This document shows positions 1,221 through 7,637 of a DNA stretch of 7,637 bases, piece after piece. The notes under the pieces are model-generated. The model was not told the DNA's origin and ran no database searches. It saw nothing but the letters and a program-made list of their open reading frames with translations. The DNA is from Cyanobacteria bacterium K_DeepCast_35m_m2_023 (GTDB taxonomy: Bacteria > Cyanobacteriota > Cyanobacteriia > PCC-6307 > Cyanobiaceae). A program made the translations under genes and the position numbers. Each line of letters begins with the position of its first letter. Positions within the stretch are counted from its first letter, which is position 1. Location: contig VGQR01000084.1 in the NCBI GenBank assembly GCA_016882345.1, forward strand, positions 1-7,637. The letters are read 5' to 3'.

Positions 1221-2102
1221 TCACAGCCGGGGAGGTCGACACAGGCAGGGGGGGCGTTGATGCAACACCTCTTGGTAATGCACGCGTCCGTCGAGGCCGT
1301 ACCAGCGGTGCGCAGCCAGGCACACCCCATCGGCGTCCAGTTCAACCCAACTGAAATGGCGCAGGGGGACATCAGCATCATCGACCAGATGCCGCGGCAC
1401 ACAGGCGGCATTGAGGTAAGCAGTTCCCTGGCGATCGATCACAAAAGTGCTGCGTTCGCCGCTACCGCGCCGCAGACGGTGGTGCATGTGCCCAAACACC
1501 ACCAGCGGCAGCGAACGAAACCGGCGGATGCGATCGATCGCCAAGGCCAAGTCTTGATCACCCCAATCACAGGCCGGAGGTTTCCAGTCACGGCCACAAG
1601 GATCCGCGGCCTGACTCCCCAGACCAGTCGGGCCGCAGTGCGCTAACAGCACCAGAGGTCGTTCTGCTGGGGCCTGAGCAGCTGCATTGACGATCAGCTC
1701 AACCGACTGGTCGCAACTCACCGGGCCATACACCGCCTGGCAGGCTCTGGCCACCGAAAACCCCCCACCAGCCGTCGCCGGGCGACCACCGACCACGGCA
1801 AGGCCAGGAAGCCTGCGTAGGTCCCATCCGCAGTGCAACGGCCCAAGGGCGTCCAGCTGGCGCAACAACGTGCGTCCCGAGGCGTCCTTGCCAGTGTCGT
1901 GGTTGCCAAGGATGCACGCCACAGGCAGCGGCAACTGTCGCAAAAGCGCCGGGATGCGTGCGTCACCATCGCTGAGATCACCGACCACCAGCAAGGCATC
2001 AGGGCTCAGACGGCTCAACACTGCATGGTCGTGCCCATCCCACTGGCCATGGAGATCGCCAGCGATCGCCAGGCGCAGAGGTGCAGTCAATGACAGCGGC
2101 AA
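1221..2102 (-). CDS. Calcineurin-like metallophosphoesterase (cyanobacteria/plant type), 293 aa
   Basis: Dinuclear-metal phosphoesterase; its substrate is unknown. All five signature blocks are visible in order: GDLHG (15-19), GDLSD (41-45), GNHD (66-69), AHCG (154-157) and GHMHH (204-208). These supply the metal-binding Asp, Asn and His residues, so the enzyme should be active. Length and the long insert between blocks three and four resemble the family I know as TIGR04168, found in cyanobacteria and plants; this is from memory. No signal peptide, so probably cytosolic. The start is a TTG at 2100-2102. An in-frame TAG lies five codons upstream with no ATG or GTG between, and another TTG at codon 5 is an alternative. 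It is the first gene of a minus-strand pair with the glycosyltransferase four bases downstream, and is divergent from nadA across only 48 bases. Confidence 0.86.
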   Translation of the reverse strand: MPLSLTAPLRLAIAGDLHGQWDGHDHAVLSRLSPDALLVVGDLSDGDARIPALLRQLPLPVACILGNHDTGKDASGRTLLRQLDALGPLHCGWDLRRLPGLAVVGGRPATAGGGFSVARACQAVYGPVSCDQSVELIVNAAAQAPAERPLVLLAHCGPTGLGSQAADPCGRDWKPPACDWGDQDLALAIDRIRRFRSLPLVVFGHMHHRLRRGSGERSTFVIDRQGTAYLNAACVPRHLVDDADVPLRHFSWVELDADGVCLAAHRWYGLDGRVHYQEVLHQRPPCLCRPPRL

Positions 2103-2150: not shown

Positions 2151-3119
2151 ATGGTCTTTGCGGCTTCTCAAAGCACTGTCACAACAAACAGCGAACACAA
2201 GTTCGCCATTGAACGTCTCAGACGAGAACGCAACGCAGTAATCCTGGCTCACTACTACCAAGACAATGACATTCAAGACATCGCCGATTTCATCGGAGAT
2301 TCACTTGAATTATCAAGAAAAGCCGCTCAAACCGATGCCGATGTGATCGTTTTTTGCGGCGTTCACTTCATGGCAGAGACAGCAAAAATACTCAACCCTG
2401 CAAAAACAGTACTGATTCCAGATTTGACTGCCGGATGCAGCCTTGCTGATGCCTGTCCGAGCGATGCATTTTCCAGATTCCGTCAAGAACATCCAGATCA
2501 TATTGTGGTCAGCTACATCAATTGCTCTGCCGCGATCAAGGCACAGAGTGACTTGATCTGCACAAGCAGCAATGCTGTCGATCTCGTGAAACAACTCCCA
2601 GCCGACAAGCCAATATTGTTTGCACCTGATCAAAATTTAGGTCGTTGGGTTCAAGAGCAATGCGGAAGAGAACTGACATTGTGGCCTGGCAGCTGCATGG
2701 TCCATGAAAGCTTTAGCGAGCAAGCATTGCTGAAACTCAAGTCCGAACAACCCAACGCAGAAGTGCTAGCCCATCCAGAATGCATATCCAGCCTACTGGA
2801 GCACGCCGATTTCATCGGTTCGACAAGCAAGCTGCTACTACAGGCCCAACAAAGCAGCGCACAAAGCTTCATCGTTTTAACCGAACCAGGAATCCTTCAC
2901 CAGATGAGGCTTAAAGCTCCGGAAAAAACCTTTTATCAAGTGGCTGGAATTGATGGCTGCAGCTGCAACGAATGCCCCTACATGCGTCTCAATACAATCG
3001 AAAAATTACAGGATTGCCTTGAAAAAATGTCACCAGAAATTAACATAGAGGAAGAGCTAAGAATCAAAGCATTAAAACCGATACAAAAAATGCTTGAGAT
3101 GAGCAGTACCAGTAAATAA
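2151..3119 (+). CDS. nadA: Quinolinate synthase NadA, 322 aa, complete
   Basis: Condenses iminoaspartate (made by L-aspartate oxidase NadB) with dihydroxyacetone phosphate to quinolinate, in de novo NAD synthesis. It is a cytosolic enzyme with an oxygen-sensitive [4Fe-4S] cluster. Visible family motifs are AHYYQ (33-37), [10 protein letters not shown] (46-55), [14 protein letters not shown] (67-80), TAGCSLAD (93-100), [10 protein letters not shown] (121-130), PGSCMVHE (179-186) and NECPYM (273-278). The three cluster ligands are most likely C96, C182 and C275; C270 and C272 form a Cys-rich approach to the last ligand. Length is normal and the gene looks intact. ATG 2151 is the first usable start in frame after a stop at 2115-2117, with AAGGG at 2138-2142 about eight bases upstream. 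Base composition falls toward AT-rich in the last quarter, unlike the GC-rich genes to its left. It stands alone on its strand, converging on the TPR gene 36 bases away. Confidence 0.96.
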
Positions 3120-3142: not shown

Positions 3143-3169
3143 TCAATATCAAAAATTAAGCGATATTGA
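3143..3169. repeat. AT-rich inverted repeat between convergent genes, weak terminator candidate
   Basis: The arms TCAATATC (3143-3150) and GATATTGA (3162-3169) are perfect complements around an 11-base loop. The repeat spans the stop codon of the TPR-oxygenase gene and lies just after nadA, so it could help end transcription from both sides. The stem is AT-rich and no good T tract follows on either strand; the only T run on the minus strand is inside the loop. It may be chance in AT-rich sequence. Confidence 0.25.
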
Positions 3170-4664
3170 ATGCAATGCAAACGCGTTGCTGTTCTGAAAC
3201 AAACGATGATGTTTCGTGGGGCAGATAAGATGGAAACAAAACGACCAAGCCAGGGTAAGGTTTGATCGTAAAGGGGGTCTGGTTATCGAGATCTTGGTAA
3301 ATAGAGTGAGTGAACTGCAGTGAGCCCTGACCATCGGAACCTTGCACCACCGAATCCGGAACCTGCAAGTACAACACGCCACTAAGGAACGACTCAGGAT
3401 GCGTGTGTCGTCGTTGACGACCGCCAGATCGCAATGCAACACCCCACCCACTCCAACGCCAGTTGCAATGCAAAGACTGGTCTGTGGATGAGGATTTGTG
3501 CTGTAAGTGGGCTAAAAGTGGATGCTGTGAATGGTGTGACAAGTAATCGCTGACAAGGGGGGCTATTCGTTGACGAAGTGCAACTGCGCAAGGATGGCCA
3601 GAATCAAGCAACTCATGGGACTGCAGACCCATATCAGTCGGCTTACCAACACGGTTATCGACAAGGCTGGAGGAATTAAGGACATAATCAGTTAACAACT
3701 CCAAATCATTATCAGCAGAAGGAAAGATCTGTTGAGATGCGACGACGTTCTCTGGACGCAACAGGAACGGATCTACAAAAGGAAGTTGCAGGCTCTCAGG
3801 GAGATCGCAGAGAAGACTCCAAAGACGCGTGTCAAATGGAAGGCTGCTAGCAGACATGAAAGAATGAAGACACTCCCGTACAGCTTCAAGATCATTATTA
3901 GCGAGCAGAGAATAGACAAAAGGAACAACAATCCGCAGATCGGCAGGATGAGCGCGGTAAAGCTTCGTCCACTGGCTAACGACATCAAGATTATCTGCAG
4001 AAAGCTGCATCAATTCAGCTTTCAACAATTGAGCGTCAAGATTTTCGGTGTCGCAATCAACCAATTTCGAGATTAACAGATCTGCAACAACAAGATTCTG
4101 CGAATGCAAAAAGAAACGACAGGCATTGGCCAGGATTAAAAGATCTGCAGGATATTTGTCGATAAGTTTCAAATAAACAGCTTTTGCGTCATCAAGCCTG
4201 CCGCTTTCTGAATAAGCAATAGCAAGGTTGACAAACGGCTCCCGCTCATTGGGAAAGCGAACGGCCAAACGTTTCAGTAGTGATATGGCCTCATCGAGTC
4301 GCCCACCACCGATCAAAGCCTCAGAAAGCATCAATAACAGGCTGGCGTCATCTGGCCTGAACTGAAGAGCAGCTTCGATGGCAGCGCTGGCTGCCGAATA
4401 ATGACGTGTGGACAAAAAAACCTGACCACAAAGTGCATTTAAGACTGCATGACGAGAACCAAATGGAATCGTCTGGGCAAGCTTCAATGCCTGATCCAGC
4501 TCACCAATCCTTAATAAAACACGCAAAAAATTTAACTGAGCACCTGTATGACCCGGAGAGTCACTCAGAAAACAGCGATAGAGTTTAATTGCATCATCAA
4601 AACGATGATGACTGACATGCGAGAGTGCCATTTGATTAAGTTGCTCAAAATTTTTTAAATTCAC
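3156..4664 (-). CDS. TPR-repeat protein with C-terminal 2OG-Fe(II) oxygenase-like domain, 502 aa
   Basis: Two-part protein. The N-terminal half is helical with about four tetratricopeptide repeats (roughly 13-46, 73-105, 107-140 and 141-174; the last two read cleanly, e.g. NLAIAYSESGRLDDAKAVY), followed by less regular helices to about 330. The C-terminal 130 residues match the pattern I know from Pfam 2OG-FeII_Oxy_5 (PF13759): HTHPESFLSGVLYLQVP (420-436), GSLQF (447-451) and PGLVVLFPSYLPHETSSF (471-488). Likely Fe(II) ligands are H420, H422 and H483, and R494 is a candidate 2-oxoglutarate-binding residue, so the site looks complete. The TPR half probably recruits a protein or peptide substrate. 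No signal peptide. The start is a GTG at 4662-4664 without a clear ribosome binding site; ATG at codon 12 is an alternative but would cut into the first helix. A terminator ends about 14 bases upstream. Confidence 0.85.
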   Translation of the reverse strand: MNLKNFEQLNQMALSHVSHHRFDDAIKLYRCFLSDSPGHTGAQLNFLRVLLRIGELDQALKLAQTIPFGSRHAVLNALCGQVFLSTRHYSAASAAIEAALQFRPDDASLLLMLSEALIGGGRLDEAISLLKRLAVRFPNEREPFVNLAIAYSESGRLDDAKAVYLKLIDKYPADLLILANACRFFLHSQNLVVADLLISKLVDCDTENLDAQLLKAELMQLSADNLDVVSQWTKLYRAHPADLRIVVPFVYSLLANNDLEAVRECLHSFMSASSLPFDTRLWSLLCDLPESLQLPFVDPFLLRPENVVASQQIFPSADNDLELLTDYVLNSSSLVDNRVGKPTDMGLQSHELLDSGHPCAVALRQRIAPLVSDYLSHHSQHPLLAHLQHKSSSTDQSLHCNWRWSGWGVALRSGGRQRRHTHPESFLSGVLYLQVPDSVVQGSDGQGSLQFTHSIYQDLDNQTPFTIKPYPGLVVLFPSYLPHETSSFVSEQQRVCIAFNIA

Positions 4665-4678
4665 GTGTGGAAGAATCG

Positions 4679-4712
4679 AAAGAAAAGGCCTTCCCGGTAA
4701 AACCAGGAAGGC
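4679..4712 (-). terminator. Factor-independent terminator after the epimerase-STAS gene
   Basis: Read on the minus strand, GCCTTCC pairs with GGAAGGC (plus-strand 4706-4712 with 4688-4694). A T/G mismatch is followed by an inner GGT/ACC pairing closed by a TTT loop, then the tail CTTTTCTTT. The hairpin begins 35 bases after the stop of the epimerase-STAS gene and points in its direction. The plus strand has no T tract, so it is one-directional. It ends about 14 bases before the GTG of the TPR-oxygenase gene. Confidence 0.72.
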
Positions 4713-4747: not shown

Positions 4748-6901
4748 CTAGGAAACTGTAAACTCCTCTTCAAGCTCAGCGTCAACAAGAGATTGACGAA
4801 CATTAGGATTCAAACCCGATAGTGCAACCGTAAATTGGGCGCCTGCACGTTGCTTCGTGAACAGAAGATAGTTCCAGCCCGTGTCACTAATCACCTTGAG
4901 GTGTGTCATGTCGAGTTGCAAACCGGTAAGACACGGTAGCTTCTCGACCTCGGACTTGAGATATCTCAAGGTAGATGTATTTAACTCACCACTCAAAGAG
5001 AATTTTGCAATACCATCCTTGAATTCAAGCAGATCAGCGTCGAAACCTGTCCCCGCTGGGGTGATACGACAACGTACTTTAAGCTGTTGATCAGTTTCAG
5101 GTAACGTGACATAAAGCTTGCAACGATCGAATTTTTCATAAATCTGGTTGTTGATCCAAACTTCTGTCAGTTCGACGCTGCCTGGAGGCAACAGGTCAGG
5201 TGCTACCCGCAAAATATTATCAGGCCAGGCACCAGGCAATGGACTAAAGTAAAAGTCCATCGCCTGGCGATTAATCAAGAGATTTGAATAGATAGCTGCC
5301 AGGAAACACAGCTCGAAAGAGTGGTAACCCGCCATCGAATGACTGCCTTTACCCCTTTCAGTGCCTAATGCGTAGGGCTGACCATTCGCAAGCACATTAA
5401 AGTAAATGCCACCCTCTTCATAATCAAGAAACCAACCATTATAGAATGCTGAGCCTTCGCGAGCATACTGTAAATATTCTGGTTTGTCATTATAGACACC
5501 AGCCATAATGTAGTAAGCAAGAATACCTTGTTCTTGCTGCCACCAAGCCTTACGGTCGTGCCAAACGAGACGGTGGAAATCCTCACCATCTTTTTTGGTA
5601 CGCTCCATCATGTCATACCAACCACCACGCTGGTTGTCACACCCGGCTGCAGGAATGGCGTCTGCAATTTGATGAGCAAAAGTCTTATAGGAGTCTTTGG
5701 CACGCAGACTTTGCATGCGCGTTAAATTCCAGGCCACCTTAAGGTTGTGGCCAACAACGCAACGAGCTTGATGAATGCCCCAGCTTAAATCATGAGTCCA
5801 ATCATCATAGAACTTTTCGTTCATGAATGGACTGTATCCATAGTCCGGGAAATGCTCACAGATGGTATCAAAAGTATATTCGAGGAAATCAGCATATTCT
5901 GGCTCTGCCGTTGCCAGATAGAGGTTAATCAGATAGGCGGGCGCATGATCTCCTACAGAATTCCAATTCTTTTTGGCTTTATTGATTCCTAGTGAGTCAG
6001 CCTTAGCGTCAAAAGTAACAGGGTCAATGTGTGAATAATAACCACCATAAGGACCATGATCCTTATAATAACGATTCAAGAAGGAGATCGTGTCAACAAT
6101 GTCTGTAAGGATATCACCGGCACCTGTGATCCGATAGGTCTGAGTTGGACCTGCCAGCGCATAGATCTGTTCATAGCAAGGAATTGCATTACCGCCTTCA
6201 TCTCCACCAGCAGTAGAGCCCATATATTTTCGTACACTGCCATCAGACTGAATGTCAATTTGACTATACCAATATGTTATGCCTTCACTAATATCACGAT
6301 GCCGGAAGTGCTTCTGCATATACTGTGTACCCTTGGTAGCAGCCTCAAGAGCACGCTCGTCACCAGTCATCATGTAGGCGGTAGCAAAACCATAGACAAG
6401 CCGCGAAATTGTGTCCAGGTTTTGCACACCGTCAAGTTTTAAACCTTCTGCACTCAGGTCAGTGCGAAAATTACGGAAGTCAATTGTTTCCCCTTCATTG
6501 ACCCTGAATTGGGCCTCAAGGTAGAAATTGAGGAGTTGTTGTATTTGATGAACCCACCAATTTTGTTCCTCAAAACGAAGATGATCGGATTCGCGACCAA
6601 AGAGAAGAATATGCTTAGCCTCGAATTTTAAACCTGAGGATTCTGGATAGAATAGACCATAAACATGTATAAAACGACCAACTACTAATGTGTCCTTAAT
6701 CGAGGGAGCAACCTGGAAGGGTTCACCAAGATTGCGAACAAGTTCTGCATAACATGCAGCAGTGACCTTAACGGTATATGTACGGCCATCAGAGGTTTCG
6801 AGAACTACAAACCCCTGCGAATCAAAGACATCTGGAAAATCAACTTTGCGAATGTATCCAGCAATGAGATCTGAGAATGTAAAGTTGAGTTGGCCTAACA
6901 T
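4748..6901 (-). CDS. N-acylglucosamine 2-epimerase-like barrel with C-terminal STAS domain, 717 aa
   Basis: Three-part protein. Residues 1 to about 112 are beta-rich and unrecognised (possibly OB-like: AGYIRKVDF, RTYTVKVTA, GRFIHVYGLFYPE). Residues about 115-560 resemble the (alpha/alpha)6 barrel of the AGE family, which interconverts N-acylglucosamine and N-acylmannosamine or epimerises free sugars: GGWYDMMER (426-434), KAWWQQEQGILAYY (451-464) and YHSFELC (526-532). GHNLKVAWNL (384-393) matches the family GHxxE motif, except that Lys388 replaces the catalytic Glu. After a beta-rich linker, residues about 615-717 read as a STAS domain: FSLSGELNTSTL (634-645), LQLDMTHLKVISDTGWNYLL (661-680) and LSGLNPNVRQSL (694-705). 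Thr674, before the Gly, aligns with the Ser that is phosphorylated in SpoIIAA/RsbV. Standard AGE proteins are near 400 residues. No signal peptide. ATG 6899-6901 has no clear ribosome binding site. Probably follows the debranching gene in one transcript; enzymatic activity is uncertain. Confidence 0.85.
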   Translation of the reverse strand: MLGQLNFTFSDLIAGYIRKVDFPDVFDSQGFVVLETSDGRTYTVKVTAACYAELVRNLGEPFQVAPSIKDTLVVGRFIHVYGLFYPESSGLKFEAKHILLFGRESDHLRFEEQNWWVHQIQQLLNFYLEAQFRVNEGETIDFRNFRTDLSAEGLKLDGVQNLDTISRLVYGFATAYMMTGDERALEAATKGTQYMQKHFRHRDISEGITYWYSQIDIQSDGSVRKYMGSTAGGDEGGNAIPCYEQIYALAGPTQTYRITGAGDILTDIVDTISFLNRYYKDHGPYGGYYSHIDPVTFDAKADSLGINKAKKNWNSVGDHAPAYLINLYLATAEPEYADFLEYTFDTICEHFPDYGYSPFMNEKFYDDWTHDLSWGIHQARCVVGHNLKVAWNLTRMQSLRAKDSYKTFAHQIADAIPAAGCDNQRGGWYDMMERTKKDGEDFHRLVWHDRKAWWQQEQGILAYYIMAGVYNDKPEYLQYAREGSAFYNGWFLDYEEGGIYFNVLANGQPYALGTERGKGSHSMAGYHSFELCFLAAIYSNLLINRQAMDFYFSPLPGAWPDNILRVAPDLLPPGSVELTEVWINNQIYEKFDRCKLYVTLPETDQQLKVRCRITPAGTGFDADLLEFKDGIAKFSLSGELNTSTLRYLKSEVEKLPCLTGLQLDMTHLKVISDTGWNYLLFTKQRAGAQFTVALSGLNPNVRQSLVDAELEEEFTVS

Positions 6902-6964: not shown

Positions 6965-7637
6965 TCATGAGACGCGAGTCGTAAGGACAACAATACTGCG
7001 CCCTGTGACCAAGTACCTTCCCGAAGTAATGGGGGGCGCTTCGTCAACTCTAAGAATGTCACTCGAAGATTGCAACGCTGTATCAATGGTGCGCTTCCAA
7101 ACTAAATCACCATATTGTGGTATTTCGAATTCAACTGCATCCCAGTACATGTTCATCATGATATGCAGATTGTATAAATTGTCAGTATCCTCAGATGTAT
7201 CGCCAAACGTGAGACCTAGGCAACGAGCATTAGGATCTCCCCAATTAGGTTGATTTAATTGCGTACCATGCCATGAAATTTCAGGGACACCATATTTGTT
7301 AACCTGACCTGTAAAATATTTACCCTTAAAGTGGTGAAGGAAGTCAAGTCGTTTTTCAATAAGCATAGACCAAAAACGATACATATCCTGAGATTCTTTG
7401 GACGCGATACGATCCCAATCAAACCAATTCAACTGGTTATCGTGGCAATAGGTATTATTATTGCCATATTGTGTACGCCTATGCTCATCACCAGCGACGA
7501 TCATAGGAACACCCATGGAGAGAAGAAGCAGGATAGCAAAATTCTTGATCTGTCTATTACGTAAATCGATAACAAACTGATCATCTGTTTCACCTTCTGC
7601 TCCACAATTCCAACTCAGATTATCAGAGATGCCATCA
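6965..7637 (-). CDS. glgX: Glycogen debranching enzyme (GlgX/isoamylase type, GH13), C-terminal 223 residues, truncated by the window edge
   Basis: Hydrolyses alpha-1,6 branch points in glycogen or limit dextrins; cytosolic. The frame is open to the right edge, so the ATG at 7514-7516 is an internal methionine, not the start: the in-frame codons beyond it encode family sequence (SWNCGAEGETDD, fragment residues 8-19, then RNRQIKNF, 26-33). Next comes GVPMIVAGDE (42-51) and GNNNTYCHDN (58-67), the conserved block late in the GH13 barrel of GlgX proteins, then the C-terminal beta domain ending in GRYLVTGRSIVVL. The catalytic Asp and Glu lie beyond the window, so activity cannot be judged. Where GlgX usually reads GDExGRTQ, this protein has GDEHRRTQ, hinting at a divergent subfamily. 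The C-terminus is complete, with TGA at 6965-6967. AT-rich; lies 63 bases upstream of the epimerase-STAS gene on the same strand. Confidence 0.92.
   Translation of the reverse strand, partial: DGISDNLSWNCGAEGETDDQFVIDLRNRQIKNFAILLLLSMGVPMIVAGDEHRRTQYGNNNTYCHDNQLNWFDWDRIASKESQDMYRFWSMLIEKRLDFLHHFKGKYFTGQVNKYGVPEISWHGTQLNQPNWGDPNARCLGLTFGDTSEDTDNLYNLHIMMNMYWDAVEFEIPQYGDLVWKRTIDTALQSSSDILRVDEAPPITSGRYLVTGRSIVVLTTRVS

Follow-up and report, generated by a model that had tools for sequence, protein, structure and literature searches.

A cyanobacterial protein of 717 residues, encoded in a 7,637-nucleotide stretch of DNA (the window; Cyanobacteria bacterium K_DeepCast_35m_m2_023, contig VGQR01000084.1), joins a barrel of the N-acylglucosamine 2-epimerase (AGE) superfamily to a C-terminal STAS domain of a type that relatives encode separately, near the same kind of barrel. 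With aspartate where a partner-switch antagonist has its phosphorylatable serine, it may be, in a reading to which we give about even credence, a hard-wired, phosphomimetic form of one portion of the IcfG partner switch known from Synechocystis PCC 6803.

The fused protein and its surroundings

The STAS domain, the sugar epimerase-like barrel and the adjacent glycogen debranching gene of the original prediction are all borne out (Table 1). PF01740 matches the protein with 28.1 bits, the curated cut-off being 22.6; the region has the SpoIIAA-like beta/alpha fold, and its best structural matches are SpoIIAA/RsbV chains, STAS domains of transporters ranking lower. Shared with cellobiose 2-epimerase and the N-acylglucosamine 2-epimerase superfamily are the (alpha/alpha)6 barrel fold and an aligned pair of histidines, His385 and His527 (matching those of cellobiose 2-epimerase 5zig, and both invariant in 49 relatives), which we take to mark the place of the catalytic His pair of AGE-family 2-epimerases. 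Unlike those epimerases, the protein has an extra N-terminal beta domain, the C-terminal STAS domain and, instead of the Glu of the GHxxE motif, Lys388, a substitution that suggests a changed barrel chemistry. PF07221 has no match in it at E ≤ 1 and matches 25 of the 49 relatives at E ≤ 0.01. The structure model is of low confidence at residues 489–524.

Table 1. Features of the window (position 1 is its first nucleotide)
Feature	Position	Strand	Basis
CDS, 717 aa: N-terminal beta domain, AGE-type barrel, STAS	4748..6901	-	
N-terminal beta-rich domain, residues 1-104	6590..6901	-	DSSP on model; no Pfam match above cut-off
AGE-superfamily (alpha/alpha)6 barrel, residues 105-548	5258..6589	-	
Lys388, replacing Glu of cellobiose 2-epimerase GHxxE	5738..5740	-	Alignment to 5zig; invariant in 49 relatives
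STAS domain, residues 620-717, STAS_b (Slr1859-like) type	4751..5044	-	
Asp673, at phospho-acceptor position (SpoIIAA Ser58)	4883..4885	-	Alignment
Thr674, aligned with SpoIIAA Ser59	4880..4882	-	Alignment
GlgX/isoamylase-type debranching gene, 3' part, cut by window end	6965..7637	-	TIGR02100 E 1.1e-43
Terminator-like hairpin with T-rich tail, 11 pairs (7 G-C), directly 3' of CDS	4688..4712	-	
TPR + 2OG-Fe(II) oxygenase-like protein (PF13759), directly downstream	3156-4664	-	
NadA	2151-3119	+	
TIGR04168 metallophosphoesterase	1221-2102	-	
ORF without Pfam or NCBIfam match	128-1228 (scanned)	-	

The glgX gene lies 63 bp upstream of the fused gene on the same strand. The terminator scan overall gave 4 sites against a mean of 4.5 in shuffles, and thus no excess. 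In 20 of 81 clustered loci, the window among them, the gene that follows the fused one encodes a PF13759-type homologue. The window stands at 87% to two of the other loci (L001 and L002) and resembles Cyanobium/Synechococcus.

As to the enzymes of the wider family, GlgX retains its three catalytic acids in 75, 75 and 73 out of 75 fused cases and in all 27 rows labelled split (one being the truncated L023). Loss of GlgX catalysis in fused clusters is rejected, the absence of the nucleophile motif in 75 being an artefact of a regular expression, with the acids aligned. When only loci of 18 kb or more are counted, 23 of 26 split ones and 45 of 60 fused ones contain a DJ-1/PfpI gene, and an enzymatic link is likely; such genes also accompany three of three distant paralogues.

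Fused and split clusters

Homologues of the window protein numbered 4588 at E ≤ 1e-3 among 7998 candidates scored, 120 of them listed. A scan with one genome per species supplied the best 80 loci of 548 relatives, and since these were the best for a fused-type query, the ratio of fused to split forms is not a census. By record titles, the hosts include picocyanobacteria, Nostocales and other cyanobacteria, Competibacteraceae, Rhodobacteraceae, Planctomycetota, Chloroflexota and Chlorobiaceae. In a cyanobacterial sample 36 of 386 genomes matched, 24 with the split and 11 with the fused form (one genome having both) and 2 with a distant paralogue only; two more phylum samples had matches in 4 of 398 and 3 of 294. 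Among viral contigs five stretches matched a pattern, none encoding a relative. Profile annotation of 118 loci yielded 86 fused, a number that includes at least one duplicate because L149 and L050 seem to be the same contig, and 28 split. Four of the 32 labelled split were left out as mislabelled, namely L023, where the contig is cut inside a probable fused gene, and the distant paralogues L171–L173.

The usual order of the split form is AGE barrel, a first STAS protein (STAS_a), GlgX, a second (STAS_b), a SpoIIE/PP2C phosphatase and an RsbW-like kinase. The order of kinase and phosphatase varies, and some loci place them elsewhere in the row. L076 and L077 have the full row, L078 its first four genes and then the contig end, while L094, in the genome of L003, combines a STAS-free AGE barrel with a separate STAS protein, GlgX, an RsbW-like kinase and a SpoIIE phosphatase; the parts of L076, L077 and L094 are confirmed by Pfam matches above cut-offs. 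Kinase or phosphatase is found in 24 of the 28 split loci and both in 20, the later L175 and L176 also having both. The loci with neither are L078, L142 (whose contig ends close by) and, within the stretch read, L145 and L166. L174, from Thiodiazotropha, has phosphatase and STAS_b, with no STAS_a or kinase within the stretch examined. The proposed tie between a carbohydrate enzyme and a partner switch is upheld by these split relatives, which group barrel, GlgX, two STAS proteins, RsbW-like kinase and SpoIIE-type phosphatase as the icfG cluster does.

Of the 86 fused loci, 80 have GlgX on the strand of the fused gene, and neither an RsbW-like kinase nor a SpoIIE phosphatase occurs in any of the 86 (window counted; flanks of at most 10 kb, on contigs some of which are short), where a phosphorylatable anti-anti-sigma factor would have both encoded beside it. 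The 7.6-kb window itself, which ends inside GlgX, has no STAS_a, PP2C phosphatase or RsbW kinase; it does have an AGE barrel, GlgX and a STAS_b-type domain side by side, like an icfG-type cluster. Five genomes (G003, G140, G408, G428 and G445) have both forms, and since REEB417 (L094) and Thiodiazotropha (L174) hold fused and split copies, the two are not simply alternatives.

In two quick STAS trees the fused domains form one clade (SH-aLRT 97 and 98); STAS_a is one side of a branch (99.6), and a monophyletic STAS_b is not rejected (p 0.77). An AGE tree rooted with an outgroup has the split form nested within the fused one, the outgroup branches being very long, and a short tree of this kind cannot tell the older form from the younger. 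The GlgX tree has the split (86) and the fused (48) sequences each on one side of a branch, with the outgroup filling only about a quarter of the columns.

A side observation concerns a mostly Nostocales set of fused loci (L040–L073), where 24 loci have a response-regulator/thioredoxin-reductase-like gene near the fused gene (in 21 it follows immediately) and 22 have a cNMP-binding histidine-kinase-like gene. It is possible that these response-regulator and histidine-kinase-like genes are a replacement input.

Type of the STAS domain and loss of the acceptor

All 86 fused STAS domains score higher with the STAS_b than with the STAS_a profile (median 50 versus 17 bits; for the window 41 versus 18), and Phe681 and Lys683 are common to the fused STAS and STAS_b, not STAS_a. 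The family-profile alignment sets Met-Asp57-Ser58-Ser59-Gly60 of SpoIIAA on window residues 671–675, and so puts Asp673, not Ser or Thr, at the place of Ser58. Thr674, earlier put forward as the regulatory residue, is rejected, being off by one relative to SpoIIAA and in a column that is Glu in 68 of 116 full-length close homologues (Thr in 25, Ser in 13); 33 of the same 116 have Ser or Thr at position 673. The split proteins have Ser as acceptor without exception (STAS_a 28/28, STAS_b 26/26; 54/54), whereas the 86 fused domains have Asp in 25, Ser in 21, Thr in 15, Ala in 8, Pro in 7, Glu in 4 and others in 6, a difference whose Fisher p of 9e-15 ignores kinship and is descriptive only. Loss is not uniform among the fused, since 36 of 86 keep Ser or Thr; in the window's clade Asp is found in 24 of 29 and Ser or Thr in one.

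An Asp at the acceptor should neither take phosphate nor bind an RsbW kinase. Replacement of Ser59 and Ser60 by Asp in the related STAS protein Ssr1600 abolished both binding to the kinase Slr1861 and phosphorylation (PMC12329169), and by analogy the window's STAS should be blind to such a kinase. As Thr674 is not the acceptor, the acceptor is unconserved in the fused family and no kinase or phosphatase was found beside any of the 86 fused genes, a working phospho-switch on the fused domain is unlikely; of the predicted phospho-switch, the ancestry stands and a switch on Thr674 does not.

Degeneracy extends to column 709, which is Gly in 54 of 54 split STAS proteins and in 5 of 86 fused ones. 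Together with the acceptor, this would suit a STAS domain kept as a structural or oligomerising appendage only, its regulatory past irrelevant to the barrel. We think that unlikely, given that the STAS_b type shares an operon with the unfused barrel and that Phe681 and Lys683 are conserved between STAS_b and the fused domains.

Kinases and phosphatases elsewhere in the genomes

An RsbW-like kinase gene persists in most picocyanobacterial genomes with the fused gene, PF13581 exceeding its cut-off in 15 of 17 (in 14 as an ORF of 132–183 aa), and SpoIIE phosphatase matches occur in 13 of the 17, the ubiquitous phosphatase of such genomes probably being HltA (PMC9430166). In the stretches read, kinase and phosphatase are located at a distance from the fused gene; the exception is REEB417, where the kinase sits in the second, split cluster. 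They leave room for cross-talk in fused proteins that keep Ser/Thr; these may still be phosphorylated by a kinase elsewhere, which counts against the hard-wired reading. Both the genome counts and the 36 retained acceptors would fit a fused STAS that is still a working partner-switch input, with an RsbW/PmgA-type kinase encoded elsewhere. The near absence of Ser/Thr from the window's clade, however, makes this quite improbable, as do the other, separate short STAS proteins present in 17 of 17 of these genomes, which are the obvious substrates and of which the two examined, at L097 and L100, keep Ser at the acceptor. STAS domains in transporters sense small molecules, and such a role has been proposed for other STAS domains too; that the fused one is a sensor, with a nucleotide, an anion or a lipid as its ligand, is very improbable, with SpoIIAA/RsbV chains rather than transporter domains as its closest structural matches.

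The icfG cluster and a proposed mechanism

The icfG cluster is already known, and the fusion is in databases only under automatic names; in the open-access library searched no paper was found that joins a STAS domain with a 2-epimerase, and for anti-anti-sigma with 2-epimerase none was, by title, on a fusion. In Synechocystis PCC 6803 the cluster comprises the N-acetylglucosamine 2-epimerase Slr1855, the antagonist Slr1856, GlgX (slr1857) and IcfG (PMC8670252), with slr1859 encoding a STAS protein, slr1860 (icfG) the phosphatase and slr1861 the kinase, which phosphorylates Slr1856 and Slr1859 (PMC12329169). The parts and order of slr1855–1861, as so described, are those of the split loci, though orthology is judged from published names and gene order. 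With this cluster the window shares an AGE-type barrel, GlgX and a STAS_b-type domain, and it differs in that STAS_b is fused to the barrel, the acceptor is Asp, and STAS_a, phosphatase and kinase are not seen nearby. Compared with SpoIIAA/RsbV, the differences are the Asp for the acceptor Ser, the setting as the C-terminal part of a large enzyme-like protein, and no linked kinase or sigma factor.

For the split operon we envisage that STAS_b (Slr1859 type), when dephosphorylated, would dock onto the AGE-type barrel (Slr1855 type) and thereby set barrel activity or assembly of the barrel with GlgX; phosphorylation of the invariant Ser of STAS_b by the RsbW-like kinase would bring release, and resetting of a STAS protein would fall to the PP2C phosphatase. 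Where STAS_b is fused to the barrel, with kinase and phosphatase missing from the neighbourhood and Asp as acceptor, as in the window's lineage, the STAS would be a fixed docking or assembly element. The identities of the domains, the STAS_b type, the gene orders and the loss of the acceptor are observed; the contact of STAS_b with the barrel, its control of the enzyme, the enzyme's reaction and the fixing of the arrangement by fusion are what we infer. Fusion only suggests STAS_b–barrel binding, and suggests that the target of Slr1859, listed as unknown in PMC12329169, is the AGE-like Slr1855; the lost switch residue in the fused protein is a hint that the switch really targets the enzyme. 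More tentatively, and with somewhat less than even confidence, an IcfG-type switch would act on an enzyme and not on a sigma factor alone, Slr1859 being a subunit or allosteric regulator of Slr1855 with GlgX, and many lineages would have frozen STAS_b in a single state by fusion and by acidic or other residues in place of phospho-Ser.

The main point against an enzyme as target is that Slr1861 controls SigC via Ssr1600, an ordinary partner-switch output (PMC12329169); also against it, Slr1859 is reported in PMC12329169 and PMC11619594 not to be dephosphorylated by IcfG. On the other side, loss of slr1859, and not of slr1856, impairs growth on glucose at low carbon (PMC11619594). Both Slr1856 and Slr1859 gain phosphate in the dark (PMC7466104). 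A precedent for direct control of an enzyme through binding by a switch protein is Pseudomonas aeruginosa SiaABCD, where SiaC so controls SiaD; as SiaD is a diguanylate cyclase and SiaC a separate protein, the likeness is one of working, not of family (PMC8457831).

Significance

The association of the icfG cluster with control by glucose and inorganic carbon goes back three decades. An Slr1859-type STAS fused to an Slr1855-type barrel beside GlgX names a candidate target of the icfG STAS protein, and its natural phosphomimetic versions, found in very small marine genomes, offer material for the study of a metabolic partner switch.
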